Positions 4,582-47,938 of a DNA stretch of 64,000 bases are shown here, piece after piece. Source of the DNA: Thelephora terrestris (lineage: Eukaryota > Basidiomycota > Agaricomycetes > Thelephorales > Thelephoraceae); assembly GCA_015956445.1 (NCBI GenBank), contig WIUZ02000025.1, forward strand, positions 124,001 through 188,000. The letters run 5' to 3'. The translations under genes and the position numbers were made by a program. Below the pieces are notes generated by a model, which did no database searches, had not been told where the DNA came from, and was given only the letters and a program-made list of their open reading frames with translations. Every line of letters starts with the position of its first letter. The stretch's first letter is position 1.

Positions 4582-5738
4582 TTAGGGCTAGTTTATGACC
4601 ACAAACTGGTCTGTACTTCATGATATAATGAATATTACAGATAAATTTGTATTTTCCTATTTTTATCAATTTTTTTGGGATTTTTTTGAATTTTTTGGGC
4701 AAAAAATATATTAATATTGAAATTATGGGCTATTCAATGGACCAAAAAAATTGAAATAATTTTTATAAAATATTTATCTATACTCTGGAATTTTTGGAAT
4801 TTTTTTGGAATCTTTTCCTGATTTTTCCAGCCAGAAAAACAATTTTTTGAATATTTCTGGGAATAATTTACCATTTTGGGCACTTTCTAGATGTGTGGGA
4901 ATTTTTTCAGTATTTTTTAGGATTTTTCTGGCATTTTTCCGAATTTTCTAACATATAATTTCCTTTTTTGGTAATTTTTGCCAAAATAATTTTTGAATTG
5001 CTTATGTAAGCCATCAAAATTTCCTTTTTTGAAAACTCTTTCCTAAAAAGGAAATTTCCTTTTTTGGTAATTTTTGCAAAAAGCGTTTTTGAGCTGCTTA
5101 TGTAAGCCATCAAAATTTCCTTTTTTGGTAATCCATCAAATATTTCCTAAAAAGGAATTTCCCTTTTAGGAAAGACCCCTCCAAAAGCATTTTTGAGACA
5201 CTTATGTAAGCCATCAAAACTTTCCTTTTTTGGTCAGTCACATGACCTGATTACATAAGCAACACCCACTTTTTTCAGTCACATGACCTGCTTATGTCAG
5301 CCATCAAAATTTCCCAAAAAGGAAATTCAATATCAAAATCATTTTTGAATTGCTTATGTAAGCCATCAAAATTTTCCTTTTTGGGAAATTTTGATCGGAA
5401 ATTCCCACAGTCCATTTTTCATTTTCTGCCCTCCCTGACACTCGTGGGAATTTTCTAATAATTTTTGGAATTTTTCCAGAATTTTCCAGAATTTCCCTGA
5501 ATTTTTTAATTTTTATTATATAAGCAATCCACTCTCCCGGGCCACCCACACTGTCGGCACCTGCCTAATTGGGAGCACCAGTGCCCAGTAAGCTGGGTCC
5601 CAGTCCCCCCCATAATTTCCATTAAAACTTTATGAGTAAAATATCCCCCCTCAGGCCATTCAAAAACTCATGAGAAAAATCATTCAAATTTGCGACAAAA
5701 ACTCCTAAAACATTAATGTTTTTAATAAGGACTACTGC

Positions 5739-6073
5739 AGGGCATACTGTTGTATGGCGCCGTACGCTCCATGGGTCATGGGTAGGGCATACCACCGTAC
5801 GGCGCCGTACGCTCCATGGGTCATGGGCAGGGCATAATGTCGTACGGCGCTGTACGACCCATGGGTCATGGGCAGGGTGGATGGCTGTCCAGCACCACCG
5901 TACGGCCCATGGGTCATGGGAAGGGCATACCACCGTACGGCATCGTACAACCCATGGGTCATGGACAGGCCATACTGTCATACAGCACCGTACAACCCAT
6001 GGGTCATGGGACCCACACACCATCGTACGGTCCATGGGTCATGGGGATTTGTACCTGTTGTACGGCGACGTAT
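5739..6073. repeat. 45-bp minisatellite M1, middle block
   Basis: About seven more diverged copies of the CGTACG/CCATGGGTCATGGG unit, continuing the array cut by palindrome P. It ends at the 5-bp target copy cgtat (6069-6073) of unit A1. Confidence 0.85.
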
Positions 6074-6178
6074 TGTCACGAACGCGTGACATATTAACCA
6101 AGATCTCTCAAGTAATCCAAGACATTGGTCTTATTCGCAGTAATAGTAGTACAAAAATAATTAGAAAGAACTACGAAC

Positions 6179-7151
6179 TCAGACAAGAACAAACGGGTCG
6201 GCATCACATGGGCAGTACTGAGGAAGGGGACAACGATGAGCAAAATGATGAGGGTTATGAACACTCTCAGGACAATAAGACCATGCTCGCGTTACCGGAT
6301 CCTGCCAACATTCCCTACACCCCAACACATCATGATATAGACTATCATGCATCTCCCGCTTTACGTCCGACAAGGCTGCACTCACTAAGGCGAATCCATA
6401 GCGGTCCTGGAGACCCGCCACTTCCACTTTCAACTTCATCCGAACCTGACGTGACTTGTCGGAGGGACGACAACGTTGACCAGAACGAGTCATCGGATTC
6501 TTGCGGTTCTTCTTCTTCTGGGATCGCTCCACCATCTGACGAACTGGGGCAGGACTCCAGGGAAGGGATGGAGGGAGATGAATGCCCTGATCCTGGCGGT
6601 GGCGAAGGGATGACTGGGGACTTGCAGGGGGGGTCGGTGCAATAAGCTCCGCGGCATTGATGGCCGAAGTACCGGAAGAGAGATGCCTGGAAAGGTCCCC
6701 AATGTTCCAAAGCAAAGTGAGAGAAATCCTCGTTCAAACTGTTAACGACCACGTACATGGTATCCATCCTCCTCTCCAGCCTAATGATCCTATCCTCTCT
6801 ATCCCGCTCCATAGCATCCAACAGACGAGGAACTCCAGGACGATCCAAATGAGCCCGGATGGGATCATTGTACTCCGCTTCCGACATGCGGCTAAGTAAA
6901 CCTCTTGCTCCAGCATGGGGAGCATCGAAACGATCAAGACGGGGGTCTTCATAACCGGCCTCCTCCCAGAACTGGGGAGGAGCGTTGTGAGCCGTAAGGA
7001 AGTTGATGGACGCCTCGTTGTCCTGAGCAATGGCGGCAGGGGTGTCGTACAAGTGTTGCTCCATGACGTAGGGAGCATCCGTCTCGAAAGACGGAGTAAA
7101 GGGGGTGGCGGCAGCATTGAGCATGGCGGTATTGGCGTCAAAAGCAGACAT
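6179..7151 (-). CDS. Reverse-strand gene inside LTR-type unit A1
   Basis: ATG at 7151. The first part encodes an acidic N-terminal region ending in a short charged helix with coiled-coil character (motif MERDREDRI). The downstream part (to 6179) is proline/serine-rich, then basic, then ends in a Cys/His-rich block with CRECW and HHFAHRCP, suggestive of a zinc-binding fold. The two parts lie in different frames, and an intron is likely in this family. The same layout recurs in A3 (18847 to 17944) and A4 (34668 to 35577). I do not recognise the family and assign no function. It is a component of a retroelement relic, not a host gene. Confidence 0.5.
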
Positions 7152-7599
7152 GGTGAAGGGTGACGGTTTATAGGAGAAGGGTGGTACTGGTGTTTGGTGG
7201 GAGTGGAAAAGAGACGATGAGGGAAAACGATCATTAATCCCCAGGACTTAAATACACCTTGACTCAAAAAGACCGAAAAGGGAGAACAATAACCTATTAT
7301 CCATTTAACGTCCCCATTAGGGTAAACGAACCCTCAGCCCCAATCGAGATCCCATCCATTCGGAGAAATCCCCATCGATCACGAGAAATCCCCATCGCGC
7401 TTCTATTGCTACCACGAAACACGAGAAATCCCTGAATGCTTCCATTGACCCGCGCCACTATTGTTCCCGTATAAGTAATTACTATCGGTCGTCCTAAGTC
7501 CCCTCATCCTGACTCATCCGCCCTACCCTAAACTACGCACAGACCATGTTGACTCTTGTTTGACTCGTTGTAAAATAATGACTCCTGTAGAGGATTGGG

Positions 7600-7606
7600 T
7601 ATATAA
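7600..7606 (+). promoter_or_regulatory. TATA box of unit A1
   Basis: TATATAA lies 145 bases upstream of the sense frame. The same box and flanks occur in A3 (19351-19357) and, on the minus strand, in A4 (34150-34156). It is the likely start of the retroelement transcript and marks the U3/R side. Confidence 0.65.
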
Positions 7607-7750
7607 GGAAGAGCGTTCGCTCCTTCTTTTCCCCATTCTCAATCTCTTCTGTACTCCCCTACCCACAACCTGAATAAAAGTAAGCTGAGGGATCCTCCTC
7701 ACACCTTACCTCTTCTAAACTCATTTTAGCAGGAATCCTCCTGCCAGTGT

Positions 7751-8374
7751 ATGTTCAGCGCCCCTAATCCTTTTCCCTCTACCAGCCCCGTCCAGCGACC
7801 AGTCATCCCCGACGCCAGAAGATCTATCTGGGAGTATAAACTCATCAGAAGTCTTCAAGTAAACCGAACTGCCGGTTTACTTACTCACTTTCCATACTAT
7901 CGACCCTTCGCAGCTCTTGACGCCGGAGTCACCACCCCTCCGTTTCTATTAGGAGCAGATCATCAATTCCTTTGGAATTCAGATCTTACTGAGAGCGTCC
8001 TCGCGACCGTCTACTTCAGTATTAGCCCGGCCTTTTACTTTCCCTCTCCACGCGTTCATCTCACGACTAATATCCATACCCATTCCCCTGCTATTATCGT
8101 TCTCTGGTGGGAAATTCCAGCTGAACTACCTTACTCTGTTATAGAATACCTCGTCAACTTCGAACGTCTTAGCGATCAAGACTTCGAACCGTTTGTGCAG
8201 CAACTTAATCAGTTCTGCCAAGACTACCACTCACCCGTACATCCTTATCAAACCGAGTCACCCCTCTCACTTGATATTCCTCCTCCCCTCGTCTCCACAC
8301 CCGGTACCCCCTTCAAAACCAGACCCGACACCCCTCATCCCGCCGCTAATCCTCTAGCGCCCCACAAACAGTAA
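7751..8374 (+). CDS. 207-codon sense frame of LTR-type family A
   Basis: ATG at 7751, 145 bases after the TATA box, and stop 20 bases before the 3' end of the unit. The predicted protein has an aromatic-rich middle (motifs FPYYRPFAALDAG and HQFLWNSDL) and a proline-rich tail. There is no membrane segment or known catalytic motif. The A4 copy differs at 7 of 207 residues and the A3 copy is very similar, so the frame has stayed open across copies. It could be a gag-like or accessory protein read from the LTR itself. I do not recognise a family. Confidence 0.55.
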   Translation: MFSAPNPFPSTSPVQRPVIPDARRSIWEYKLIRSLQVNRTAGLLTHFPYYRPFAALDAGVTTPPFLLGADHQFLWNSDLTESVLATVYFSISPAFYFPSPRVHLTTNIHTHSPAIIVLWWEIPAELPYSVIEYLVNFERLSDQDFEPFVQQLNQFCQDYHSPVHPYQTESPLSLDIPPPLVSTPGTPFKTRPDTPHPAANPLAPHKQ

Positions 8375-8394
8375 GCAGGCCTACAACCCTGACA

Positions 8395-8474
8395 CGTATG
8401 GCCCATGGGTCATGGGATTTTGTCACGCCATACGGTCCATGGGTCATGGGGAAAAAGTAGCTGAATGGGCTCGT
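8395..8474. repeat. Minisatellite M1 tail with shared 3' boundary
   Basis: About 80 bases with two CCCATGGGTCATGGG cores around a TTGTCACG motif, ending AGCTGAATGGGCTC. A homologous block of the same length and boundary lies at about 21036-21120, at the end of minisatellite M2, so the two arrays share an edge sequence. Confidence 0.7.
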
Positions 8475-8547
8475 ATGCCCTATGCTTAACGACTCAAAGT
8501 CCAATATGTGGAACGTGCTACTAGTCAAGATACCCCAGAAGACCCGA
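8475..8547 (+). mobile_element. Fragment of LTR-type family B (B3)
   Basis: 73 bases matching an internal stretch of unit B1 (about 10190-10262). It is cut on the right by the family C LTR at 8548. A fossil fragment. Confidence 0.8.
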
Positions 8548-10077
8548 TGAACTAGCCACAAAACCTTCGGAGTCCGAGAGGGCAGAGATGGCAGTTAGAA
8601 GGTCAGGTCCTCGGTTTAGAGGTGCGAGCCTCTAGGAAATCTGCGGGAAGCTAACGAAAGGTGAGAGAGAAAGTCGGGAAGAGAACAGGAGAACGGGGCA
8701 GAAGGCAACAGGAAAGCCAGGGCATGAAACTACCAATAGTAAACTAAGGGAAACGTTGGGAAACATCGGGACAAGAGAGTCAGAAATCGGGACACCAGCG
8801 GGACACAGGAGACCAGAGGGACGACGAGAACGAGGGCGAGACGACGAGGGAACCGAAGGGAGGACCGTAGCAACGCTGCTAGGCCTCAGAAGAGAGAGAG
8901 AGAGAGGAAGAGAGAGAGAGGGAACGCTCCTGATTGATTCTGTGGTCTATTGAATACAGGGGCCTTTATATACAATGCTAAGGGCTCTGAGAACGAAGGG
9001 AACCAAAGGGAACGAACCAAAATGATGTCAAGAGACCTTATGACGAGTCTATGACATAGGGAAGGCGGGGGATCGAAGGGAATGATGAAGGAAAGGAATG
9101 TGGTTGAGAAACGAACCAGAGGGAGGTCTGGAGTTGCAAGCAGGGCGATCGATCGAGACGTGATTGGGACGCAGGGAATGGAGATAGGGAGATGAAAACT
9201 AAAGATATAAAATGTACTGAAAAGTCGGGACACAATCGGGACTGATCAGGACGTGATCGGGAGGGAATGTGAAGGAAACAAAGTCCTAGGGGTACTAAAT
9301 GCTAAGGAACACAGGTCGCAGGTTGCAGGTCGAGGGGGCGCAGGTTGCAGGTCGAAAGGGGAAAACATCGGGAAGTCGCAAGGGAGAATAGGGAGAGAGG
9401 GAAGTGTGGTGAAGTGAAGGGACAGTGAATCCTCATTGGGACAGTCGAGAATGCTGAGGGAACTCATCTAGACCTCGCGCAGCGGTTGTCAATAGTTGAG
9501 AGAAGGTCGCGATTCCGGATAGTGTCCGAAATACGGTCACGACATCTCCTTGGGACTTCAGAGAGCAACCGTCCTCGGTTGTCTTGAGGCGCAAGAGGAG
9601 CCTTCTTGGGACTTCTGATAGAAACTCGGGAGGCCGAGAGAAAGGGATAGCAAGAAATAGGGAAAAGTCGGGATAGAGAAAGTGTGGAACAAGAGGAAAT
9701 CTAACTAGAAGGGGTGCTTTGTGGATATAGAAAGTGTAGCGTAACATAGGGATGGGATGTGCTAATTAAAGGGAAGGAGGGGATAGGGAAACATAGGAAT
9801 GGTCGTCGGGAAGGGAAGAAAGGTAGCGGACATCCTCAGGATCATCCCAAGTGAAGTCCTCATCATCGTCCAGATCAGAGACCAGCGGGATATTGGTAGC
9901 TGTGTGCGGGAAGTAGGGAATGAGTCGGAAGCCTGCGACGCAAAGCTGAGACTGTGCTCCATCGAGTTCGGCCACGATATATGATGTCCCCTTTGTCTTG
10001 CACACAACAACCATTGGACCGAGGTAGCGAGGCTTGGTCTTCCTGTTCAAGGACTCCTCAACGCGAGTGTTGCACAC
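8548..10077 (-). mobile_element. Ty3/gypsy-type element C, 3' LTR plus end of internal region
   Basis: 8548-9544 is an LTR of ~1 kb in minus orientation (it starts TGTCGTGACC on the minus strand and ends GCTAGTTCA). It matches the solo LTR at 12622-13655. 9545-10077 is the 3' end of the internal region. On the minus strand, 10077-9766 encodes the C-terminal part of a Ty3/gypsy integrase (motifs KPRYLGPMVV, SYIVAELDGA and FRLIPYF, typical of Agaricomycete gypsy elements). The element is truncated where unit B1 starts, so it is broken and only a small part remains. Low-complexity GA-rich sequence near 8890-8925 lies in the LTR. Confidence 0.85.
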
Positions 10078-12516
10078 TGTGATGATTTCGCCGTTTACCC
10101 CCTTCTATTTCCTTTATTTAACGCCTCATCACCACTAAGTCAGTTGGTGCCCTGCCCTAAACACGGCGGTAAACTGTTTATTATGCAGTATGCCCTATGC
10201 TTAACGACTCAAAGTCCAATACGTGGAACGTGCTACTAATCAAGATACCCCAGAAGACCCGAGGTATAATACGTGAACATGTACCGGCGGACCTTCGTAA
10301 GAAGATCCCCCCTACCTGGCCCTCCATTGCCCCTGGACGATTAGTAGATATTCAGACTACCGACAACAAGGGATGTATTAATAAGCGTCGCGCGCTGACC
10401 TCTCGCAGAAGTCAACCGGCTTATTAATCTGACCCTTGGATTGGACTTATGAAAACCATTATGCTTTATGACTCATGGATTACACGCAATAGACAAGAAA
10501 GAAGATTCATTGGAAGCCAACAGTACAAAAGAGTTATCTAATCAATATCTCTTCGGATCCTTTGTACTACTTCCAATGCCAATCTCACCAACTCCTCGTT
10601 CACCCAGTTCTGCTCCCGGATCTTGTTTGGGTCCACGTCCGACAAGTCATCGTAATCTGGAAGCTCCGTATCAGAGTTTGGTTCACTATCGGGAACGAAC
10701 TCGGCATACGGATCATACTCCAGAGCAGGCCATTGACGGCGACTACCCCAAGGAGTAGAAACGAACTCAGGACGAGGAGTGTCCCTACGGACGACTCCTA
10801 CGTTCTGATAAAATTCGTCGCTCCCAATCTCAATGACCTCATCATCGACGGGAACCAACCTGTTCTCATGACGGACCAATAAGCGGGCGGCGACTCAGCC
10901 CGGTTAGGGATGATCGGCGACCCGGCCCGATGCAGAACCTCTTCCTCTTCTTCCTCTTCAACTCGGACCTCCGACTCGTTGCACCTCCTCTGGAGATCCC
11001 AGACTTCTCCGGTCAACTCGGAGACACGACGAGTAAGACAAACCTAAAACGAATAGGGTTAGAAGACATCAAAAACGAATAGGGTTAGAAGACATCAAAA
11101 ACCTTCAACCCCTACCCGTTACCTTATCGTCCTCCAATTCTCCGGTTTTAGTAACCAGAGCCCGGACCAAGTCTTTAAGAGTGGTCACCTCTCCCTGAAG
11201 GAAATGTTGGGTTAGAAAAGTCAATTGTCTCCTGACCCCACATTTACCTTCAACAAATCGATGTCGGCGCCCTGCCGAACAACACTATCTTCTTGTCCAT
11301 GAATAACGCCTTGCATATCCTCCTTCCAATTCTCCAAAGCTTCTATCTCCTCATGACGACCATCAATACGTTCGTTGACATGAGCCACTTCATCCATTAA
11401 CATGGACCCAACGTTCCCCGTATGGAGAACGCTGGCCTCCAACACGGAGTTGAAGGTCTCGTTGGCTTCCGTCACGAATTCGACACCCCTATTGAGGAGC
11501 TCGTTCGCATAAGGGTTAGTCTCAATGCGCGCCAACTTGCGCCGAGACACCCTACGAGCGGCTTGGAGAAAGTCCCTGAAACCTAAAAGGAGTTAGCTTG
11601 GTTTCCTAAATCGGAATACGCAAGCAGGGCCCCCACCTAAATCAGAGAACCCTTCATTAGGGTCGGCGGTGGCGGTCCGGTCCATAACGGCTCCCAAGGT
11701 GGGATAAGGGCGGGAAGGATCATGACGGGCATGAGAGAAGCGGTCGATGTTGTAGTTGTTCTCCTGAACAGGAGAGTAAGAGGAAGAGCGGCGAGTGGGA
11801 TTGCGAGTAGAGGCACGAGGCATGTTGGCTGTGTAACAAAGGTGGGTTTGTTGAGAGACCCAGTCATCCAACCCCCTTTAGTTATATACCAAATGCCACG
11901 CCCCTTCCACGACTCAGGAGTTGAGTCATCATTTCTATTGTTTACTGCGCATGACCCACATGACATCATATGCCCCTATTTCTTAGTCATATGCTCCCCT
12001 TTTGCCATTGGCTGTTAGTCAGTCATACCCACATTCCTTCCGAACATTCCCAGGCTACGTCATGCTTTGTAACTGCTTTGTAATGCTCTCAAATTGCTAT
12101 TGGCCGCCACACTTTCGTTTATCAGCTGATAAGTTGTAGCATTAGTCACCACGAAACGCACAGACCATGCAGTGCTGTGCACGGACCATGTTTGTCTGTG
12201 CTTGTATCTTTAGGATAGTTACATGTCACTGTCACGTCACAAATCTAAGTAGTATATATACTCAGAGTAGTTTAGCCTGTACTCCTTAGATTTGTTATCA
12301 TCAGACTCTCCGTGACCTCTACTGCTGTGTGCTTAGAGCAAGAGTGCCTGAAGACCCTTGTCTCCTTCTTTCTCCTCTTCTCCAATCTAGTTTGTGAAGA
12401 GACTTCCGATATCCCTGGGTTTGCAACAGGGCTATAACTGTGTGTTTGATCCTTGTGTGCGATAGGTTTGGATAGCAAGAGTGCTATTGAACTGTAGAGG
12501 TCGCGTCGGCCTGACA
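10078..12516 (+). mobile_element. LTR-type unit, family B, copy B1
   Basis: It matches B2 (22506-24928) in reverse orientation over its whole length, with ends TGTGATGATTTCG and GGCCTGACA. A TATATATA box at 12253-12260 precedes the last ~260 bases. A reverse-strand gene occupies about 10538-11823. The bases flanking it (cacac and tttcc) do not match: the left side is truncated element C and the right side is the interior of unit A2. The locus was therefore rearranged after insertion. No polymerase or integrase region is present. Confidence 0.82.
10538..11823 (-). CDS. Reverse-strand coiled-coil gene in LTR-type unit B1
   Basis: Likely ATG at 11821-11823, 60-odd bases downstream of a minus-strand TATATAA (11881-11887). 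Frames read as several exons separated by short GT-AG introns: a basic N-terminal segment, a long heptad-rich coiled coil (motif ERIDGRHEEIEALENW), an acidic run of glutamates, and an acidic C-terminal tail. It is the counterpart of 23201-24467 in B2, and layout and intron positions agree between the two copies. Function unknown. It is part of a retroelement relic. Confidence 0.55.
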
Positions 12517-12621
12517 TTTCCCTTCTACAAGCCCAGTTCAGCGACCAGTCGTCCCTGATGCTAGGAGATCTATCTGGGAGTATAAACTCATCAGAAGTCT
12601 TCAAGTAAACCAAACCACCGG

Positions 12622-13655
12622 TGTCGTGACCGTATTTCGGACACTATCCGGAATCGCGACCTTCTCTCGACTATCGACAACCGCTGCGCGAGGTCTGGAT
12701 GACTTCCCTCAGCATTCTCGACTGTCCTGACAAGGATTCGCCTGTCCCTTCACTTTGCCACATGTCCCTCTCTCCCTATTCTCCCTTGCGACCTCCCGAT
12801 GTTTTCCCTTTCGACCTGCGACTTAGACCTGCGACCTGCGCCCTTCGACCTTAGACCTGTGACCTGCGTTCCCCAGTAGATAGTTTCCCTCAGATTCTTC
12901 TTCCCTCAGATTCTTCTTCCCTCACACCTTGTCCCGATTACCTCCCGACCAGTCCCAATCGTGTCCCGACCATTTCCCGACTCTCCACCACGTCTTGTTT
13001 CTTTAGTTTACATTTCCCTATCTCCATTCCCTTCGTCCCAATCACGTCTCGATCGATCGCTCTGCTCTCAACTCTAGGCCTCCCTCTGGTTCACTTTCCA
13101 ACCACATTCCCTTCCTTCGCTGTTTCCTTCGATCCCTCGCCTTCCCTATGTCATAGACGTGTCATTAGGTCTTTTGACATCATTTTGGTTCGTTCCCTTT
13201 GGTTCCTTCGTTCTCAGAGTCCCCAGTAGTGTATATAAAGACTCCTGTACTCGATAGACCAATCAATCACAGAGCAGCGTTCCCTCTCTCTCTCTTCCTC
13301 TCTCTCTCTCTCTTCTGAGGCCTAGCAGCGTTGCTACGGTCCTCCCTTCGGTTCCCTCATCGTCTCGCCCTCGTTCTCGTCGTCCCTCTGGTCTCTCGTG
13401 TCCCGCTGGTGTCCCGATTTCTGACTCTGTTGTCCCGACGTATCCCGACATTTCCCTTTGTTTGTTATCGGTATTTCGTTCTCTGGCTCTCCCGTTGTCT
13501 TCTGTCTCGTTCTCCCGTTCATATCCCGACTTTCCCTCTCGCTGTTCATTCGCTTCCCGCAGATTCCCTAGAGGCTCGCGCCTCTGAACCGAGGACCCGA
13601 CCTTCTAACTGCCATCTCTGCCCTCTCGGACTCCGAAGGCTTTGTGGCTAGTTCA
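12622..13655 (+). mobile_element. Solo LTR of Ty3/gypsy-type family C
   Basis: 1,034 bp, with ends TGTCGTGACC and GCTAGTTCA. It is flanked by ccgg on both sides (12618-12621 and 13656-13659; the exact duplication length is ambiguous at 4-5 bp). TATATAAA lies at 13232-13239, about 610 bases in, which gives U3 on the left and R-U5 on the right. It matches the LTR attached to integrase coding at 8548-9544, which fixes family and orientation. A polypyrimidine (CT)n block is at about 13281-13314. It holds no open frame with coding character. Confidence 0.85.
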
Positions 13656-13992
13656 CCGGTTTACTCACCCACTTCCCTTACTATCGACCCTTTGCAGCCC
13701 TCGACGCCGGAGTCACCACTCCTCCTTTCTTATTGGGCGCTGATCATCAGTTCCTTTGGAACTCCGACCTCACCGAAAGCGTCTTAGCGACCGTCTATTT
13801 TAGTATAAGCCCGGCCTTCTATTTTCCCAATCCACGTGTCCACCTCACCACTAACATCCATACCCACTCCCCTGCTATTATTGTTCTTTGGTGCGAAATA
13901 CCAACTGAATTACCTTATTCGGTTATAGAATATCTCGTCAACTTCGAACGTCTTAGCAACCAAGACTTCGAACCATTCGTACAGCGACTAAG

Positions 13993-16900
13993 TGTCAGGA
14001 ACATGGTATTTTTAAACTTTTTATAACACGCTCTTTCTTCGAACTCTTCTTATCACTTCTTATGTTTTGAATGCTTCACACTCCTTATCCTTCACACCAA
14101 TCATTCAAAACACACAAACGCGCATACATTCACGGCAATACGAAACAACCTGGCTATACAAATGCTTCTACAACGTCCTCAAAAGTCGACTCTATCCACG
14201 GCAGGCCTGAAGTTCATCAACTGTCCGTCCCGGAGATCGTAGTGCTGGCCCCTCCTCGCTAGGACCTCCCCGAACATGGCGTCACCATCTTCGGCACTCA
14301 GCTGAACGACTAGTTCAAGCCGATAGGAAGAGATACCTTCGAGCGGACCGATCAGCCTCCCAGATGTCACCGAACTCTGGAACACCTGGTTCCACATCTC
14401 CATCACCGGGTGACTGCTCGACAGTACTGTCGACGTAGTCGGCAAGCGACCCTCCGTCTCCCTCGTCGGACCCCTGGGTGGGATCCTGTATTGCGAGTCT
14501 ACGCTGGTGGCGAAGCTGGATCTCCGACTCGACCTGTCGGTAGGGACGGTTGACCCGATAGCGGAACTCTCGTCCCCTATCTCAACCAGACTGGTCACCA
14601 TCCGACTCAACTGGACGCGGGTATGGGTAAGCCGATGGAGCCATGCGATGAGCAGGACGGCGTCGAGAGCGTTTGCAACGTTGCCCCTTAGTCACCGGAC
14701 GTACCTCGGCGACCCTCGGAGCATCTTCAGCTCGGTCAACCTCCATGACTTCATCTTCAATCTTCACCAACCGTTGGATCGGCTGCAAAATGCAGTGCCC
14801 ACAGTTCTCCTTGTCGGAAGCGGCCAGAGTGGAAGCCGGACCTGGAGTCGGAACGGGAACCGCGTTCTCGATCGGAGGCGTCGCATAGGACGACGGGTTA
14901 GGCGATGGGAGTACCACCTCGTCGGCGTACTCCAGCTCGAACGGAACATCGGCGGTCCCCTCACCAACCAATTTGGGACCCTCCTTGCAGTTACAGGTCT
15001 TGTCCTGCAAAGACTCGACCTGCGCCGTCAACACAGCCACCACGTTCTCGAGTTCCTCCATCTAGAAGAAGTGTCAGCTTCCCTCATTTCGTCTTCGAGA
15101 TGAGGAAAGCTACCTTTTCATCTCTTCTGGCCAACGCCCCCTTAATGTTGTTGTCCCTGACCTTCAACCCTGCGATCAACTCTTGATGGTTGGCGACCAT
15201 AGCCTCCAACGCCTCGTTCGTTCCTTGTTGGAAGGCTGCCAAGGTCTCCTTCAATTGAAGACCCTCTGCTGATAGACGAAGGACGTCTGCCTTCGCTTCC
15301 TTTACCTCCCGCTCCAATCGTTCAACCTAGGCAGTCTGGTTAGTCGAGAGTCATACTCGAATATTCAGACAGAAAACCTACCCGGCTTTCTCCTTCTCGA
15401 ACGAGCGACCACAAGAGACTAGTGGAAGCGGTAGCATGGCGGATGGCCCGAGGAATGGTCGCTCCGTGTTCCAACAGGTCCTGATCGTAGATCCCCCTTT
15501 GCAGGGTGTACCAGAGCTCCTTCTTGATCGGATGCTCCAACTCTCCGAACCTACCCCTCATCTGGAAGGCCACCTTCTCGGCGATGATTGTACGGACCCA
15601 AAGCTCATCATCCCAGGTCAACCCCTTCAAATGAGGCATCGTCTCCCTGAGACGTTCGGCGTCCACTTCCGTGACGACCTCCAAGATCTAGAAGCCGTTA
15701 GTTTGACATCAAATGCCAAAAGAACGTTCCTCTACCTAGAGGAAGGCGTTAGTGCAAACACACGAAGCTCTAGGTCTCCCCCATACCTGATCATCCGTGG
15801 TATAGGGAGTCCCAGCCGCACAGGCATAAGTCTTGTGAGCAGCGGCACGACGGTCGATGCGAGAGATGGTGGAGATACCATTGGCGACTTTGTAGGTATG
15901 GTTGTTGGGGAAGGACATGTTTTGGTAAGATGATGGGGAAGTTGCTGGTGTTGCTGATCAAGGATGGCTCCAAGAAGACGTCCTTCTTATAGCCTAGATC
16001 GGTGATCCTTCACGTGACCTACCTCGACGAACCTCATTGGTCCGGGTCACATCAACTTCCGCCCCTGTACCATCATCGTCGGCTTACTACATCAAGCTGA
16101 CACCTCGGCCCGCGGGACGGCCTTGGAAGAACTTCGTTCCGGAACGCCTAGAACGCGCGCGCACTAAAAATAGGTCTCATGACCTTGACGACCCCTTGAC
16201 GAACCCCCTTTATGACCCTGATGACTCATTTATGACATCATGATAACGACCAACCCTGGACCCTGGAACACACACGTGGGCACGGGGTATCAACATTTGG
16301 ACACTGTGCTTCTAATCGGATAGTAACCTATCTGATCTAGTTGTGCTTTGGAAGCAGAGTAGGCCCGAGCCGAGAACGGCGGCCGAAGAATATAATCCCT
16401 GGTGCCACTTAGGAAGAACGATATTCCCAGGTGCTATGCCTAATCAAGACTGGGTCTGATCAAGCGATTACGGCTGCGACTCCCAGGTTACTGCCTGTCC
16501 GTTGGTATCATACCACCTACCGACAACAAGGGATGTGTAGAGTTCCTTCGATCTCTAGCCAATCACAGAAGCTCAGAGACGGTGCTCACCTGACCCTTGG
16601 GTGTGGTCTAGATTCAGGTACGAACTTTCATGACCCATGCCCCTTTTTCTTTTAGGACTAGTGTTATCTTTGCCCCTATGTTTCATGTGGACTATTGTTA
16701 TCTTTTATGCAATCCTTCACACGCTAGTAAGGCCCTTTGTCCTTTATTCTCCCACGCGTCATATTTGTTTGCTTCCTTTACTTAGCGTTCTCACACTCCT
16801 TATCTCCCTTTGTTCCAGACTTGATAAGGGTATATTAGGGTATTGACGTCATGGCCACTCCTTTAGTATAAGTAGCAACTGTGGCTGTATCGTAGTACCT

Positions 16901-17319
16901 TAGTTTTGTTACCTCAGGAAATCCTCTGCCCTTCTCAGCCCAGTTGCAGTTAAGGACAAGTCAGAGTTTCTTGTTTGATCCAAGACATCCCCATCTGCTC
17001 TCCCTCCCGCTCTGCGCGTCAACTGCGCCTCGTAACTATAGACTCCCAGCAGTCATATTAGAACACCTCGAGCGTCCAGTCGATCAACTGGTGGAGTCAT
17101 CAATCCTGTTGTAGGGATCAACCCTTGCTTGTTAAACCGAACGAAGTGCGGTTTAGGTTGGGTTTCTCTTTAGGATTTCGACCTGACTTGTAGTGACCTC
17201 GGACAACCTACCGGAAGAATAGAGACGTGATCGTTCTCTCACAAGCTAGTTGGACTAGTGAGTACTCTGCGGAGTCGGCTCAGTGAACTGGTAGTTGTTA
17301 GGGTAGAGTGGCCCTGACA
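13993..17319 (+). mobile_element. LTR-type unit, family D, copy D1 (solo)
   Basis: The 3,327-bp unit starts TGTCAGGAACATGG and ends GTGGCCCTGACA. It is flanked by the exact 5-bp duplication ctaag (13988-13992 and 17320-17324), inside the sense frame of A2. A TATA-like TAGTATAAG near 16864 precedes the last ~450 bases. A reverse-strand multi-exon gene fills about 14179-15918. No polymerase, integrase or second LTR is present. D2 at 47229-51682 is the same unit in the other orientation. Confidence 0.83.
14179..15918 (-). CDS. Reverse-strand coiled-coil gene in LTR-type unit D1
   Basis: ATG at 15916-15918. Reading frames suggest four or more exons with short introns: a small N-terminal exon, an exon with KELWYTLQRGIYDQDLLEHG, a heptad-rich coiled-coil exon (motif EREVKEAKADVLRLSAEG), and a long last exon starting with a second coil (MEELENVVAVLTAQVESLQ) followed by proline-rich and acidic sequence. 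D2 has the same order on the plus strand (48804-51496). The overall plan resembles the family B gene, without obvious sequence similarity. Function unknown. Confidence 0.55.
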
Positions 17320-17510
17320 CTAAGTCAGTTCTGCCAAGACTATCACTCACCCGTCTACCCCTATCAAACGAAGTCGCCACTCTCACTTGATATTCCTCCT
17401 CCTCTTACCTCTACACCCGGTACTCCGTTCAAAACCCGATCCGACACCCCTCATCCATCCGCTAATCCTCTAGCGCTCTACAAACAATAAGCAGGCCCAC
17501 AACCCTGACA

Positions 17511-17838
17511 ATGCCCCATGGGAAATGGATAGTGTTGTACAGCCCATGGGGCATGAAGAATGGGTATTGTTGTACAACCCATGCCCCATGGAGAAAGGAT
17601 AGTGTTGTACAACCTATGGGGCATGGGAAATGGATAGCGTTGTACAGCCCATGGGGCATGGAGAATGGGTAGTGTTGTACAACCCATGCCCCATGGGGAA
17701 AGGATAGGGTTGTACAACCCATGGGGCGTGGGAATTAGATAGTGTTGTACAACCCATGACCCATGGGAAATGGATAGTGTTGTACAACCCATGGGGCATG
17801 GGAATTGGATAGTGTTGTACAACCCATGGGGCATGGAG
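17511..17838. repeat. 35-bp minisatellite M2, left block
   Basis: About nine copies of a 35-bp unit with TGTACAACCCATGGGGCATGG. It ends at the 5-bp target copy tggag of unit A3 and continues at 20144. The core CCATGG/CATGGG is shared with M1, but TGTACA replaces CGTACG. Confidence 0.9.
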
Positions 17839-20143
17839 TGTCACGAACGCGTGACATAGTAGCCAAGGTCTCACAACTAATCCAAGACATTGGTCTCATT
17901 CGCAGTAATAATAGTACAAAGGTGGGTAAAAAGGACTACAAACTTAGACCAAAACAAAGGGGTCAATATCACAAGAACAGTCCTGAGGAAGAGGGCAACG
18001 ATGAGCAAAGTGGTGAGGGTTGTGAACACTCTCAGGACAATAAAACCATACTTGCGTCGCCGGATCCTGCCAACACTCCCTACACCCCAACACATCATGA
18101 GACAAGCTATCATACATCTCTCGCCGCACGTCTAGCAAGGCCTCGCTCACTAATGCGAACCCATAGCGGTCTTGGAGACCCGCCACCTCCACCTTCAACT
18201 TCATCCTCACCTGTCGTGACTTGTAGGAGGGACGACAGCGTTGACCAGAACGAGTCATCGGACTCTTGCGGGTCTTCTTCTTCTGGGACCTCTCCACCAT
18301 CTGGCGAGCTGGGGCAGGACTCCAGGGAGGGGATGGAGGGAGAGGAACGCCCCGATCCTGGCGGTGGCGAAGGGATGACTGGGGACTTGCAAGGGGGGTC
18401 GGTGCAATAAGCCCCGTGGCATTGATGTCCGAAGTATCGGAAGAGAGATGCCTGGAAAGGTCCCCAATGTTCCAAAGCAAAGTGAGAGAAGTCATCATTC
18501 AAGCTATTCATGATGACGGACATGAGATCCACCCGTTTCTCCAACTTCGCAATTCGATCCTCCCTATCCCTCTCCATGACATCCAACAATTGAACGGCTC
18601 CAGGGTGTGGAGCCTGAACTACAGGCCCAGAAAGTCTGGGGTCTTCGAACCCAGCTTGTTCCCAGAACTCGGCGGGGGCGTTATGAGCGGTGAGGAAGTT
18701 AACGGCAACCTGGTTGTCGTGAGCGATGTTGGCAGGAGTGTCGTACAAATGTTGCTCCACGTCGTAGGGAGCATCCGTCTCAAAGGACGGAGTAAAAGGG
18801 GTGGCAGCAGCATTGAGCACAACGTTGTTGGCAACGAAGGAAGACATAATAGTAGTGGATGATTGGAGGAGGTGGTACTGGTGTGTTGTGGGAGTGGAAA
18901 AGAGACGATGAGGGAAACGATCATTAATCCCCCTGACTTAAATACATCCTGACTCAAAGAGAACCGAAAGGGGAGAACAAAAACCCATTACCCATTAACG
19001 TCCCCATTAGGGTAAACGAACCCTCAACCTCAATCGCGATCCCATCAGATCAAAGAAATCCCCATCAATCATGGGAAATCCCCACTCGCCTTCTACTGCG
19101 ACCGTGAAACGAGAAAAATCCCCACCGATCATGAGAAATCCCCATCAGTCTTCTATCCCCGCCATTGATCATGAGAAATCCCCATTGTGCTTCTAATAAC
19201 TCCTTAACTATTGTTCCCCTATTTCATTTCGCTATTTGTCGTTCCAAAGTCCCACTCCTCTGACTCATTCACCCTGCCCTAAACTACGCACAGACCATGT
19301 TGATTCCTGTTTGACTTGTTGTAGAATAATGACTCCTGTAGAGGATTGGGTATATAAGGAAGAGCGTTCGCTCCTTTCTTTCCCCATTCTCAATCTCTTC
19401 TGTACTCCCCTACCCACAACGTGAATACAAGTAAGCTGAGGAATCCTCCTCACGTCTTACCCCTTTCTAACTCATTTAGCAGGAATCCTCCTGCCAGTGT
19501 ATGTTCAGTGCTCCCAACCCTTTCCCCTCTACAAGCCCAGTTCAGCGACCCGTTGTCCCTGACGCTCGAAGATCTATCTGGGAGTATAAACTCATCAGGA
19601 GTCTTCAAGTAAACCGAACCGCCGGTCTACTCACCCATTTCCCGTATTACCGCCCCTTTGCAGCTCTCGACGCCGGAGTCACTACTCCTCCCTTCCTTCT
19701 AGGCGCAGACCATCAGTTCCTGTGGAACTCAGACCTCACCGAGAGTGTCCTAGCTACGGTCTATTTCTGTATTAGCCCGGCCTTTTATTTTCCCTCTCCC
19801 AAAGTTCATCTCACCACCAACGTTCACACTCACTGTCCTGCTCTCATCGTCCTTTGGTGGGATCTTCCAACTGAATTACCTTATTCGATTATAGAATATC
19901 TCGCACACTTCGAACAACTCAGTGATCAAGACTTCGAGCCGTTCGTTCAGCAACTAAATCAGTTCTGCCAGGACTATCACTCGCCCGTTCATCCTTATCA
20001 AACAGAGTCATCACTCTTGCTTGATATCCCTCCTCCTCTCACCTCGACGCCCGGAACCCCCTTCAAAACTCGACCCGACACCCCGCATCCTCCGCTAATC
20101 CTCTAGCGCCCCACAAACAGTAAGCAGGCCTACAACCCTGACA
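17839..20143 (+). mobile_element. LTR-type unit, family A, copy A3 (solo)
   Basis: 2,305 bp with the same ends as A1. It is flanked by the exact 5-bp duplication tggag (17834-17838 and 20144-20148), inside minisatellite M2. Parts are a reverse-strand gene at about 17944-18847, a TATA box at 19351-19357, and the sense-frame region from 19501 to about 20106. It is mostly intact, with perhaps one or two breaks. No internal retroelement region. Confidence 0.83.
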
Positions 20144-20985
20144 TGGAGAATGGATAGTGTTGTACAACCCATGGGGCATGGGAATTGGATAGTGTTGTAC
20201 AACCCATGGGGCATGGGAAATAGATAGTGTTGTACAACCCATGGGGCATGGGAAATAGATAGTGTTGTACAACCCATGACCCATGGGAAATGGATATTGT
20301 TGTACAACCCATGCCCCATGGAGAAAGGATAGCGTTGTACAACCCATGACCCATGGGGAACAGATAGCATTGTACAATCCATGCCCCATGGGGAACAGAT
20401 AGTGTTGTACAACCCATGGGGCATGGGAATTGGATAGTGTTGTACAACCCATGGGGCATGGGAAATGGATAGTGTTGTACAACCCATGGGGCATGGGAAA
20501 TAGATAGTGTTGTACAACCCATGACCCATGGGAAATGGATATTGTTGTACAACCCATGCCCCATGGAGAAAGGATAGCGTTGTACAACCCATGACCCATG
20601 GGGAACAGATAGCATTGTACAATCCATGCCCCATGGGGAACAGATAGTGTTGTACAACCCATGGGGCATGGGAATTGGATAGTGTTGTACAACCCATGGG
20701 GCATGGGAAATGGATAGTGTTGTACAACCCATGTGGCATGGAGAATGGATAGTGTTGTACAACCCATGCCCCATGGAGAAAGGATAGTGTTGTACAACCC
20801 ATGAGGCATGGGAATCAGATAGTGTTGTACAACCCATGGGGCATGGGAATCAGATAGTGTTGTACAACCCATGCCCCATGGGAAAAGGATAGCATTGTAC
20901 AACCCATGAGGCATGGGGAAGGGATAGTGTTGTACAACCCATGGGGCATGGGCAACGGATACTATTCCATTACCCATGGGTCATG
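20144..20985. repeat. 35-bp minisatellite M2, right block, with higher-order period
   Basis: About 24 units of 35 bp. Between ~20200 and ~20690 the variant units repeat in the same order with a 245-bp shift (seven units). For example, the variant beginning ATGACCCATGGGAAATGG recurs at 20276 and 20521. Three minus-strand frames stay open for 235-304 codons, because 35-bp units cycle through all three phases without a stop. They are not genes. Confidence 0.9.
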
Positions 20986-21809
20986 GGTTGTACAATGGTA
21001 TCTTTTCTCCATGGGTCATGAGTTGTACAACCTGTTGTACAACATTGCATGGCCCATGACCCATGGAGAATTGTCACGATGTATGGTCCATGACCCATGG
21101 AGAAAAGATAGCTGAAGGGGCTCCAGAGAGTTCCTGAGAAGGTGAGCCCTAGGTTGTAGAATGTCAGGAAACTCCGAGTAGCGACTGGGGAACAGTTTTG
21201 AAGAAAGTGCGAAGGTGGAGAGACCAGAAGAGAGCTAGAAACAAAGCAAGCAAGAAGAACAGAGGGGTTCCAAGAGTTCCAAGGGGAAGATTCATTGGGG
21301 AAACTGGGGAACGTGATGGGGAAAGCGGAGAATGCGATGGGAAGACACTGAGGAAGACAAGAAGACACTTGAGGACAACGAGGGGACTAGGGCTAAGATT
21401 CAGTCTAGGAGGGGGGAAACATAGCTGACTGGGCCTCAATAGGATGGGGCGCAATGTTCTCCAGAGTAGCTAATACAGGATATGTATACCCAAGGTCTGC
21501 TCTGAGAAGGATCCAGAGAAGAAAGGAGGAAAACTGCAAAATAGGGACCTATGATGCAATGGTGAAGTCATAGGGGAAGAGGAGAAAAGGGGAAAGTCGT
21601 CATGAAAGGGGGAAACTAAGCAAAGAGGAAAGCATTGAGAAGAGGAAGTTCTGGCAAAGAGGAGATTGTGAAGAAGAGGAAGTTCCGGTGAAAAGGAAGT
21701 TGCAGAAGTTGCAAAGGTTGCAAAGAAGAGGAAAAGCAAAGAGGAGGAATGAGGACTGACGACAGCAAACACCGCAATCCCACATCCCCAGAACTGGAGG
21801 CACTACAGC
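20986..21809. other. Degenerate repeat edge and gene-free purine-rich stretch
   Basis: 20986-21120 holds diverged CCATGGGTCATGG cores and an 80-base block homologous to 8395-8474. From 21121 to about 21800 the plus strand is rich in GGGAAA/GAAG runs, resembling the composition of the family C LTR but without clear alignment. Frames on the minus strand are low-complexity (S/F/P/L) and not credible. Confidence 0.5.
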
Positions 21810-22358
21810 GCATTTAGATTACATCTCGGACAATTGATGAACATGCTGCACTGGGTCCAGGATAGAATAGGTTTCTGGGGATTATTCTAAATAATATTCA
21901 GAATATAATCAGAATAATAAACATGTCTTATTTTAAACATATTCTAGCCATATCCTAGGATTATTTTATTCAAATCTGATGCCCAGAGCCAACTCTGCTG
22001 AGAGTTCATTTGCATTTGCATATTCCTTGAATGTGGGCAGAATCTGTTTTGAAAATAATACATTTACTATTTTAATTATATTCAGAATATTGTTTAGAAT
22101 AATCCCCCAAAACCTATTCTACCCTAGACCCAGTGCTGATTAGCACTATCATATTTGCTGATAGGTCAAAAGCATCCCAGAAAAATTTGTTGAGAACATT
22201 TCAAATGGCATTGGTGGACATTGGTTGGATTACATGTCAAGGTAACATTTGAAATGTAATCAACCAGGAATTGGCGATTACAGTTATTGGAAAGTGCACA
22301 AGAACTCACCATGTAATCAAGATGTAATCACCAGTTCCAGGTGCCCCTGCCCCCAGTG
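21810..22358. mobile_element. CACTG foldback MITE E1, half copy, carrying E5
   Basis: Matches the right half of E4 (about 52925-53189) and ends in GGTGCCCCTGCCCCCAGTG. The left half is missing. MITE E5 (21849-22135) is inserted in it. Confidence 0.8.
21849..22135. mobile_element. Small foldback MITE E5
   Basis: 287 bp. Terminal inverted repeats begin CACTGGGTCCAGG and end with its near reverse complement. The 3-bp target duplication is ctg (21846-21848 and 22136-22138). AT-rich interior with repeated AGAATAAT/ATTCAGAATAT motifs, no coding. CACTG ends with a 3-bp duplication suggest a CACTA-superfamily non-autonomous element. Confidence 0.83.
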
Positions 22359-23133
22359 TTCATGGGTAAAGACAGCGCAATCTATGCAAAAGAGGTGGGA
22401 AAAGTTGCAAACAAATGGGGAAACAGTGGGAGAATAGGAACAACCAGATGGAACATCGGGACATCAGGAAGGTGCTACGATTGGTGTTGCCAAGAGGATG
22501 GAGTGTGTCAGGCCGACGCGACCTCTACAGTTCAATAGCACTCTTGCTATCCAAACCTATCACACGCAGGGGTCAAACACACAGTTATAACCCTGTTGCA
22601 AACCCAGGGATATCGGAAGTCTCTTCACAGACTAGATTGGAGAAGAGGAGAAAGAAGGAGACAAGGGTCTTCAGGCACTCTTGCTCTAAGCACACAGCAG
22701 TAGAGGTCACGGAGAGTCTGATGATAACAAATCTAAGGAGTACAGGCTAAACTACTCTGAGTATATATACTACTTAGATTTGTGACGTGACAGTGACATG
22801 TAACTACCCTAAAGATACAAACACAGACAAACATGGTCCGTGCACAGCACTGCATGGTCTGTGCGTTACGTGGTGACTAATGCTACAAATTATCAGCTGA
22901 TAAACGAAAGTGTGGCGGCCAATAGCAATTTGAGAGCATTACAAAGCAGTTACAAAGCATGACGTAGCCTGGGAATGTTCGGAAGGAATGTGGGTATGAC
23001 TGACTAACAGCCAATGGCAAAAGGGGAGCATATGACTAAGAAATAGGGGCATATGATGTCATGTGGGTCATGCGCAGTAAACAATAGAAATGATGACTCA
23101 ACTCCTGAGTCGTGGAAGGGGCGTGGCATTTGG

Positions 23134-23140
23134 TATATAA
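23134..23140 (+). promoter_or_regulatory. TATA box of the reverse-strand gene in unit B2
   Basis: TATATAA, 60 bases upstream of the ATG at 23201. It is conserved in B1 (minus strand, 11881-11887). With the TATATATA near 22762 on the other strand, it makes the unit divergently transcribed. Confidence 0.55.
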
Positions 23141-23200
23141 CTAAAGGGGGTTGGATGACTGGGTCTCTCAACAAACCCACCTTTGTTACACACAGCCAAC

Positions 23201-24467
23201 ATGCCTCGTGCTTCTACTCGTGTTCCCACCCGTCGCTCTTCTTCTTACTCTCCTGTCCAGGAGAACAATTACAACATCGACCGTTTCTCCCATGCCCGTC
23301 GTGATCCGTCTCGCCCTTATCCCACTCTGGGAGCCGTTATGGACCGCACCGCCACCGCCGACCCTAATGAGGGTTTTACCGACTTAGGTGGGGGCCCTGC
23401 TTGTGCATTCCGATTCAGGAAACCAAGCTAACTCCTTTTAGGTTTTAGGGATTTTATCCAGGCTTCTCGTAGGGTGTCTCGGCGCAAGTTGGCGCGTATC
23501 GAGACGAACCCCTATGCGACCAAACTCCTTAACAGGGGTGTCGAGTTCGTCACCGAGACCAACGAAACCTTCAACTCCGTGTTGGAGGCCAGCGTTATCC
23601 ATACGGGTAACGTTGGGTCCATGTTGATGGATGAGATTGCTCATGTTAATGAGCGAGTTGATGGTCGTCGTGAGGAAATAGAGGCCTTGGAGAATTGGAA
23701 GGAAGATATGCAGGGGGTTATTCATGGACAGGAAGATACCGTTGTTCGACAGGGGGCCGACATTGATTTGCTGAAGGTAAATGTGGGGTCGGGAGATAAT
23801 TGACTTCTCTAACCCAACATTTTCCTTTTAGGGAGAGGTGACTACTCTCAAGGACTTGGTCCGGGCTCTGGTTACTAAAACCGGAGAGTTGGAGGACGAT
23901 AAGGTAAGGGGTAGGGGTTGAAGGTTTTTGATATCTTCTAACCCTATTCCTTTTTAGGTTCGCCTTACTCGTCGTGTCTCCGAGTTGACTGGGGAAGTCC
24001 GGGATCTCCAGAGGAGGTGCAATGAGCCGGAGGTCCGAGTCGAAGAAGAGGAGGAAGAGGAAGTTCTGCATCGGGCTGGGTCGCCGATCATCCCTAACCG
24101 GGCTGAGTCACCGCCTGCTCGTTTGTTGGTCTGTCATGAGAATAGGTTGGTTCCCATTGATGATGAGGTCATCGAAATCGGGAGCGACGAATTCTATCAG
24201 AACGTAGGAGTCGTCCGTAGGGACACTCCTCGTCCTGAGTTCGTTTCTACTCCTTGGGGTAGTCGCCGTCAATGGCCTGCTCTGGAGTATGATCCGTACG
24301 CCGAGTTCGTTCCCGATAGTGAACCAAACTCTGATACGGAGCTTCCAGATTACGATGACTTGTCGGACGTGGACCCGAACGAGATCCGGGAGCAGAACTG
24401 GTTGAATGAGGAGTTGGTGAGGTCGGCATTGGAAGTAGTACAAAGGATCCAAAGAGATATTGATTAG
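23201..24467 (+). CDS. Coiled-coil gene on the reverse strand of LTR-type unit B2
   Basis: ATG at 23201. Frames and splice consensus suggest about five exons, with short introns near 23431-23460, 23776-23831, 23905-23957 and similar. The first exon is basic and serine-rich, and the next is a long heptad-rich segment (motif EIEALENWKEDMQGVIHGQ). Short coil exons follow (GEVTTLKDLVRALV, VRLTRRVSELTGEVRDLQ). The last exon has a run of seven glutamates and an acidic tail ending at 24467. Nothing points to an enzyme. A coiled-coil scaffold or nucleoprotein is possible but is inference. Copy B1 has the same exon plan. Confidence 0.6.
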
Positions 24468-24933
24468 ATAACTCTTTTGTACTGTTGGCTTCCAATGAAT
24501 TTTCTATTTTGTCTATTATGCGTGATCCATGAGTCGTAAAGCATAATGGTTTTCATAAGTCCAATCCAAGGGTCAGATTAATAAACCGGTTGACTTCTGC
24601 GAGAGGTCAACGCGCGACGCTTATTAATACATCCCTTGTTGTCGGTAGTCTGAATATCTACTAGTCGTCCAGGGGCAACGGAGGGCCAGGTAGGGGGGAT
24701 CTTCGTATGAAGGTCCGCCGGTACATGTTCACGTATTATACCTTGGGTCTTCTGGGGTATCTTGACTAGTGGCACGTTCCACGTATTGGACTTTGAGTCG
24801 TTAAGCATAGGGCATACTGCATAATAAACAGTTTAACGCCGTGTTTAGGGCAGGGCACCAACTGACTTAGTGGTGATGAGGCGTTTAAATAAAGGAAATA
24901 AAAGGGGGTAAACGGCGAAATCATCACAGAGTG

Positions 24934-25732: not shown

Positions 25733-25852
25733 TCGAACAACCTACTGGAAGAACAGAGACGTGATCATTCTCTTACAGCTAGTTGGACTTGTGAGTACAC
25801 TGTGGAGTTGGCTCAGTGCACTGGTGGTTGTTTGGGTACAGTGGCCCTGACA
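25733..25852 (+). mobile_element. 3' end fragment of an LTR-type family D unit (D3)
   Basis: About 120 bases matching the last 120 bases of D1 (17200-17319), ending GTGGCCCTGACA. The rest of the unit is absent. A truncated fossil next to the receptor gene's 3' end. Confidence 0.75.
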
Positions 25853-47766: not shown

Positions 47767-47938
47767 CATCAGAATAGGTGGCAGCGACATTATTTGTCGA
47801 TTATTTCACCTTATTCACCTTTTCATCGGTTATTTCGTGATTGTTTGATGTAGGTCAAAAGGTTAGGTAAGGAATAACCTCAAATAACTTCAAATAACCT
47901 CACATAACTTCGATAATCTGGTGCCACCTTTTCTGATG
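47767..47938. mobile_element. 172-bp MITE with TA target duplication
   Basis: Terminal inverted repeats CATCAGAATAGGTGGCA and TGCCACCTTTTCTGATG match at 16 of 17 positions. TA is duplicated at 47765-47766 and 47939-47940. The empty site is seen in D1, where this stretch is absent. TA duplication points to a Tc1/mariner-type non-autonomous element. Confidence 0.9.

Follow-up and report, generated by a model that had tools for sequence, protein, structure and literature searches.

Can a solitary long terminal repeat (LTR) carry a gene of its own on the strand opposite to its element? The question is raised by a 64-kb stretch of the genome of the basidiomycete Thelephora terrestris (contig WIUZ02000025.1, positions 124,001 to 188,000; hereafter the window, with position 1 as its first letter), in which a sequence-only reading had described three families of LTR-like units (A, B and D), each with a coiled-coil gene on the reverse strand. 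Substitution patterns among the copies make it clear that this antisense gene has been kept by purifying selection in all three families, and family A holds a further gene, on its sense strand, that was absent from the earlier description. We give an even chance to the explanation that the units are solo LTRs of three fungal LTR-retrotransposon families, serving as two-way promoter cassettes for accessory, probably regulatory, proteins.

Three families of units with one plan

Seven units were counted (A1, A3, A4, B1, B2, D1 and D2; Table 1), the fragmentary A2 being excluded from all counts. Unit length is 2.3 kb in family A, 2.4 kb in B and 3.3 kb in D. All seven begin with TG and end with CA, as had been described, and the terminal inversion is short, at about 5–7 bp. 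The 5-bp duplications that were said to accompany these ends are exact around six of the seven units; the claim fails for B1. When A1, B1 and D1 were compared with the window by BLAST (matches longer than 40 bases, E 1e-5), only copies and fragments of the same family were returned, and the protein profiles compared between families showed no significant similarity, which agrees with the earlier statement that A, B and D share no obvious sequence. The three A copies are 83–85% identical in pairwise comparison.

Purifying selection on the antisense gene

The copies of each family were aligned and their differences counted by codon position. The resulting p values assume independence of the differences and, the frames having been chosen after inspection, serve as guides; the effect far exceeds this caveat except in the short D tail. 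In family A, the ratio of non-synonymous to synonymous change (dN/dS) among the three copies, taken pairwise, was 0.14–0.18 over 179 codons for the first part of the antisense gene and 0.11–0.18 over 119 codons for a second part in the +1 frame, with codon-position p values of 1e-5 to 3e-12. Comparison of B1 with B2 gave a dN/dS of 0.066 over 366 codons (p 3.5e-32), and the four-exon part of the D gene a value of 0.100 over 435 codons (p 1.2e-26). The signal is weaker in the C-terminal piece of D, where p is 0.009 over 75 codons and 3e-4 over 62 codons, the boundaries having been picked after the frame was seen.

Wrong frames and wrong strands, used as controls, gave dN/dS values of 0.6–7 in A, and wrong frames 1.9–4.2 in B and D. 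As a negative control, a pair of C-family repeats from the same window (12623–13652 and the reverse of 8549–9620; 87% identical over 990 columns) showed no periodicity, its differences by phase numbering 45, 41 and 42. A plus-strand open reading frame (ORF) across the left part of A (5674–6645) was rejected, with a dN/dS of 0.6–1.1. A check proposed with the original description was whether substitutions avoid non-synonymous positions; they do so in the antisense gene of each family, and this purifying selection supports the contention that the gene matters to the elements.

Introns, frame switches and integrity of the copies

The antisense gene had been called intron-bearing, which proves apt for B and D, with three canonical introns each, but not for A, in which no acceptable intron was found. 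The B introns run from GT to AG, have a CTAAC close to the acceptor, and measure 54–55 nucleotides (nt) in B2; in B1, a 25-nt duplication has lengthened the third. Those of D measure 99, 55 and 49–52 nt, and the introns of both families carry GT...CTAAC/CTGAC-like...AG signatures. Differences between copies affect 7 of 99, 0 of 55 and 25 of 49 aligned positions in the first, second and third D introns, and 11 of 161 positions in the B introns, which is below the rate at B four-fold degenerate sites (Fisher p 7e-5). Both genes have four exons, and in both the last two introns are in phase 0 and lie near or within the coil.

In family A, the selected frame moves by +1 at about reverse position 1852 of A1, with differences biased to silent changes in frame f1 before this point and in f2 after it. 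Candidate introns bracketing the switch have poor donors and no match to the CTNAY branch motif. A 70-nt intron starting from the GT at reverse position 1638 was rejected because the region beyond it is under selection in f1: of the A1–A3 differences after that position, 8 of 10 are silent in f1 and none of 10 in f2. A +1 frameshift is thus a candidate for the joining of the two A parts, the alternatives being an unusual intron or a second cistron translated from the ATG at 6535. A +1 change of the selected frame occurs in D too, somewhere from reverse position 2890 to 2984. Here, a fourth intron is possible in place of a frameshift, as three conserved GT–AG pairs (91, 70 or 49 nt) are available, all ending in CTCGAAG and each with its acceptor 19 nt beyond a CTGAT. 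Both putative switches have a CCC codon nearby, in the context CCC_AGT_T in A1 and A4, CCC_AGC_T in A3, and CCC_GGT_G in D.

The gene was expected in every copy, and while it is recognisable in all seven units, it is broken in A4 (in-frame TGA), in B1 (4-nt deletion) and in D1 (in-frame TGA at 14584–14582). In D2, about 950 nt have been inserted where exon 4 ends or close by, the insertion point following D1 reverse position 2949. The antisense genes of A1, A3 and B2 are without lesion, if the frame switch of A is counted as functional. The D2 insertion is the larger of two inserts resembling miniature inverted-repeat transposable elements (MITEs), about 953 nt long with long inverted repeats, and it may lie inside the fourth D intron, if that intron exists. 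The smaller insert, of about 172 nt, has the ends CATCAGAA and TTCTGATG.

The antisense proteins

The heptad-rich coil of the earlier description was confirmed in all four antisense proteins tested (A1, A3, B2 and D2), each with a significant heptad stretch of 28–35 residues; 0–5 of 1000 shuffles matched the observed score, and the two window sizes used agree. A second feature of that description is an acidic or proline-rich tail. There is a Pro-rich segment in the first part of the A1 protein. The acidic tail of A, which lies in the frame continuing the first part, is not under selection (dN/dS 0.7–1.6), and the selected tail, conserved in three copies, consists of basic stretches followed by Cys/His pairs with CxxC and HHxxH patterns.

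Six proteins were scanned against Pfam, and matches were of sub-threshold rank only: mostly coiled-coil families for the B and D antisense proteins, and two matches (E 0.14) for the A tail. The first part of A, the sense protein of A and the D tail had no match at all, and the proteins scanned gave no match to bZIP, nor to the TRP28 domain at E values up to 10. Searches for relatives produced 38 pattern matches for the A sense protein and 15 for the D protein in viral contigs, and 98 for the B protein in bacterial and archaeal contigs, with no relatives among them, although these collections are uninformative on fungal relatives.

Profile comparison across families (A first part with B, A first part with D, B with D, and A tail with D) gave probabilities below 2%, with E values of 0.03–0.23. 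Homology between the antisense proteins is not detectable at this level and is not claimed. The sequence-only reading had nevertheless called their presence convergent, an origin that is not demonstrated. Because B and D share the four-exon layout, with phase-0 last introns near or within the coil, common descent with rapid divergence is at least as likely as convergence.

A second gene on the sense strand of family A

Judged by its substitutions, the most strongly conserved feature of the units is an ORF on the sense strand of family A, which begins downstream of the sense TATA box and ends just before the unit end. Across the three copies, dN/dS is 0.018–0.054 with dS of 0.8–1.1 (p 1e-28 to 9e-38). 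Upstream of it, each of the three A units has a leader intron signature of 49–50 nt. No comparable sense ORF exists in B or D, where the longest open stretch between TATA box and unit end is 53 (B1), 53 (B2), 72 (D1) and 53 (D2) codons. The sense protein has no coil in the same shuffle test, and a search of solved structures with its profile gave a single match (E 0.68), taken as chance.

Promoters and conserved non-coding DNA

Within each family, every copy has TATA-like boxes on both strands, in corresponding positions. On the sense strand, the distance from the box to the 3′ end is 793–796 bases in A, 262–264 in B and 454–455 in D, in accordance with the 260–800 bases described earlier for all units. 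On the antisense strand, a TATA-like box lies 65–103 nt upstream of the ATG in each of the seven units (67 nt in B2 and 73 nt in D1).

Two families show little change in the stretch that separates the antisense ATG from the end of the unit, with differences at 10 of 693 positions in B, compared with 36 of 160 four-fold sites, and at 50 of 1391 positions in D, compared with 41 of 202 four-fold sites. Such low change is as expected if something specific reads that DNA. In family A, the leader from TATA to ATG is conserved (11–13 of 175–176 sites differ, or 6–7%), and 20–28% of positions differ from the antisense ATG to the sense TATA, as against 13–30% of antisense and 37–46% of sense four-fold sites.

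Two further observations concern these regions. The B1/B2 block from promoter to unit end (22506–23192 and 11830–12516) is 99% identical and the adjacent gene block 88%, with a sharp border near the antisense ATG; either modules have been exchanged or constraint is strong. A1 (7861–7878), D1 (17134–17154) and D2 (47394–47414, with one change) have in common a hairpin motif, AAACCGAAC...CGGTTT; it lies downstream of the sense TATA box and is possibly a leader RNA signal, possibly chance.

What the units may be

If the units are solo LTRs, the sense TATA box would start the RNA of the element and the antisense box would drive the coiled-coil gene that occupies the upstream portion of the LTR; the sense box of family A would also drive the 207-codon protein, which ends just before the LTR does. 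The antisense product would be an element-encoded accessory factor, dimerising via its coil and acting in trans on the control DNA or RNA of the element, so as to tune expression or packaging, and each solo LTR with an unbroken gene would be an independent source of protein. This role is suggested by the plan of the units and by parallels with deltaretrovirus and plant antisense ORFs; LTR status, gene expression and intron splicing we likewise infer. It is proposed that the introns of B and D survive by lying antisense to the genomic RNA; that a spliced genomic RNA of the other strand would lose them speaks for the sense strand as the genomic one.

Several observations weigh against this explanation. 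None of the seven units was seen paired with another as direct repeats around an internal region within the window, nor did the window yield a full-length element, a primer-binding site or a polypurine tract; because the window shows no full-length element, the case for LTR identity and orientation is circumstantial, drawn from ends, duplications and TATA boxes. None of the six proteins scanned has a match reaching the Pfam cut-off, and the confidence of two AlphaFold models is very low (pLDDT, the predicted local distance difference test score, of 34 and 46), so that they are too poor for a structure search. A stop or frameshift is present in three of the seven antisense copies, and an insertion in one other. 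The argument from conserved control DNA fails in part of A, where conservation is confined to the TATA-to-ATG leader, and the conserved blocks of B and D could reflect copy-to-copy recombination as well as constraint. In addition, the leader intron of the A sense gene lies on the presumed genomic strand, from which reverse transcription of a spliced RNA would erase it; its presence would mean either that unspliced RNA is copied, as in retroviruses, or that the units do not move by RNA.

As a rival explanation, the units would not be LTRs but complete mobile units of the DNA type with TG...CA ends, which an integrase-like enzyme moves in trans and whose genes serve their own movement. The unpaired state of all seven units within the window favours this, as do the intron signatures on both strands (the A sense leader and the antisense genes of B and D), which tend to vanish via an RNA intermediate. 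However, TG...CA ends with 5-bp duplications are the usual LTR signature, the terminal inversion is a mere 5–7 bp or so, retroviral-type elements retain introns by packaging unspliced RNA, and solo LTRs are common, so that we consider DNA-type units unlikely, though by no means negligible. The antisense protein could also be structural within the same LTR setting, a Gag-like or packaging protein with a coil for assembly and, for RNA, a basic tail rich in Cys and His. Translation would then enter the tail of A, and perhaps that of D, through a +1 frameshift of the kind known from yeast Ty elements, in which +1 shifts sit near the 3′ end of gag and the Ty3 site is GCG_AGU_U (PMC5009743). In keeping with this, A switches to the +1 frame near the C-terminus without a convincing intron, D also switches to +1, a CCC codon lies near both switches, the CCC_AGT_T site of A1 and A4 resembles that of Ty3, and the A tail has the CxxC and HHxxH patterns and basic stretches. 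Yet B has neither a frame switch nor a Cys/His tail, the genes lie opposite to the presumed genomic RNA strand, and Pfam gives no match to Gag or zinc-knuckle families. The possible fourth intron of D also lowers the odds of a structural role, which we hold to be distinctly unlikely.

Strong purifying selection and introns would also be found if the repeats had picked up host genes, or had given rise to them by domestication, and selection worked in the host instead of the mobile lineage. This is quite improbable, as the copies lie at different sites, six of them with their own duplications, and similarity is kept across the whole unit. Moreover, the three copies with a stop or frameshift and the fourth with an insertion are as expected of post-insertion decay, and fit genes that were under selection in the mobile lineage and then decayed in this way better than genes that serve the host. 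Open frames that arose by chance in GC-rich repeats deserve a mention since the A units hold long open frames in several phases, but the dN/dS values of wrong frames and strands, and the control repeat pair without periodicity, make them a practically negligible explanation.

Starting again from solo LTRs of three retrotransposon families, a bolder proposition may be advanced, with rather more doubt than belief. The LTRs of some fungi might be self-contained two-way gene cassettes, each with an antisense coiled-coil regulator and, in A, an extremely conserved sense protein in addition, the A tail possibly being made via +1 frameshifting. Solo LTRs could then form a distributed genomic memory that controls later copies in trans, three families having kept the plan while their sequences diverged beyond recognition.

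Neighbourhood of the units

Proteins encoded nearby in the window include a Plavaka transposase, a protein with an NPHP3-type domain and a WD40 protein, a set that suits a mushroom-forming host. Searches with Rfam (gathering thresholds) and ARAGORN returned nothing. Tandem repeats of 35 bp flank A3 on both sides (17412–17956 and 20037–21071), and A3 seems to be inserted inside this array, because its TGGAG duplication lies in the repeat unit. A 45-bp tandem array (1240–1712 and 5694–6079) adjoins A1, and an inverted repeat with 1392-nt arms that are 99% complementary (1663–3054/4347–5738) encloses a second one (3170–3669/3733–4232). The C-family element is present at 8549–10077 and 12622–13652 as LTR-like copies in opposite orientation, and the copy within A2 has a duplication of at least 4 bp (CCGG). 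Abutting B1, a minus-strand fragment (9800–10077) reads as pol-like C-terminal coding sequence, with no Pfam match. A 120-bp fragment of a D-family 3′ end (25733–25852) is followed by GTGGTTGGACTGC, which is readable as a primer-binding site and may be chance.

Table 1. Units and gene features in the window
Feature	Position	Strand	Remarks
Unit A1	6074–8394	+	solo-LTR-like; ends TGTCACG...CCTGACA; 5-bp duplication CGTAT
A1 antisense first part (frame f1)	6543–7151	-	N-terminus, coil, Cys segment, Pro-rich segment; dN/dS 0.17–0.18 (A1 pairs)
A1 antisense second part (+1 frame)	6179–6535	-	118 codons from ATG; basic, then Cys/His-rich; dN/dS 0.11–0.13 (A1 pairs)
A1 antisense TATA-like box TATTTAA	7248–7254	-	103 nt upstream of ATG; same motif in A3 (-97) and A4 (-96)
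A1 sense TATA box	7600–7605	+	
A1 sense 5′ untranslated region, intron signature	7680–7729	+	GTAAGC...CTAAAC...TTTTAG; kept in A3 and A4
A1 sense ORF	7751–8374	+	207 codons; dN/dS 0.02–0.04 (A1 pairs)
A2 fragments	12517–12621, 13656–13992, 17320–17510	+	split by C-family repeat and by D1
Unit A3	17839–20143	+	5-bp duplication TGGAG
A3 antisense gene	ATG at 18847; second part 17944–18300		
A3 sense ORF	from 19501		1-nt deletion near end
Unit A4	33361–35682	-	5-bp duplication ATGTG
A4 antisense gene	from 34668; second part 35221–35577	read on +	in-frame TGA in first part
A4 sense ORF	34004 to 33381		
Unit B1	10078–12516	+	flanks CACAC/TTTCC, without duplication
B1 antisense gene	11823 to 10538		4-nt deletion near 10881 breaks frame
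Unit B2	22506–24928	-	5-bp duplication CACTC
B2 antisense gene	23201–24467	+	367 codons; exons 23201–23387, 23442–23776, 23832–23903, 23958–24467
Unit D1	13993–17319	+	5-bp duplication CTAAG
D1 antisense gene	14179–15918	-	exons 15918–15787, 15687–15382, 15326–15114, 15061 to ~14409
D1 antisense 3′ part	+1 frame to stop at 14179	-	joined by frameshift or possible fourth intron
Unit D2	47229–51682	-	5-bp duplication CGCGT; nested MITE-like inserts ~50349–51301 and 47767–47938
D2 antisense gene	from 48804	read on +	

Comparison with known systems

Antisense genes (HBZ, plant aORF-3R) and LTR-borne ORFs (MMTV sag, from mouse mammary tumour virus) are each already known. The plant aORF-3R genes (Grande gene23, RIRE2 and Retand TRP28) resemble the fungal gene in being conserved family-wide and antisense to gag-pol; that of Grande has its own promoter, and the role of the plant-element antisense ORFs is suspected to be regulatory (PMC7264820, PMC11963269). 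The plant genes, however, are situated between pol and the 3′ LTR, whereas the fungal gene lies wholly inside a duplication-flanked unit, has introns in B and D, and lacks a TRP28 match in Pfam.

Proteins made antisense from the LTR of deltaretroviruses are regulators (PMC10186651). HBZ of human T-cell leukaemia virus type 1 (HTLV-1) and APH-2, APH-3 and APH-4 are spliced antisense genes with an LTR promoter, for which the TATA-like boxes of the fungal units and the intron signatures of B and D are putative counterparts; HBZ is of the bZIP type. HBZ transcription begins in the 3′ LTR, whereas a TATA-like box and the whole coding region lie inside the fungal unit; the fungal proteins have a coil but no bZIP match, and no sequence relation is claimed. 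The earlier comparison with HBZ is fair as a mechanistic idea.

The sag gene of MMTV lies on the sense strand. As a protein gene inside the LTR (U3), sag/naf (PMC9412291) is alike in its location, but the gene shared by the fungal families is antisense, and A has its extra sense gene downstream of the sense TATA box. The accessory ORF3s of bdelloid LTR-retrotransposons are also extra ORFs, some with coiled-coil motifs, although the main text of that source contains neither ‘within the ltr’ nor ‘opposite’, and ‘antisense’ once, on small RNAs.

A literature search that covered titles and the starts of abstracts of the papers listed, with most subscription papers outside its reach, found no description of an antisense gene inside a fungal LTR. 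Nor was the combination seen here found in that literature (a whole antisense gene in an LTR, selected in several fungal families, with a sense gene in one), and its absence from print is not claimed. In the sources consulted, the antisense genes of retroelements belong either to retroviruses, HTLV among them, or to plant elements, in which they lie outside the LTR. If the present explanation is true, solo LTRs, usually seen as dead promoter relics, could keep producing element proteins, fungal genomes would offer a testable model of copy-number control, and such genes may be mis-annotated as host genes or overlooked.

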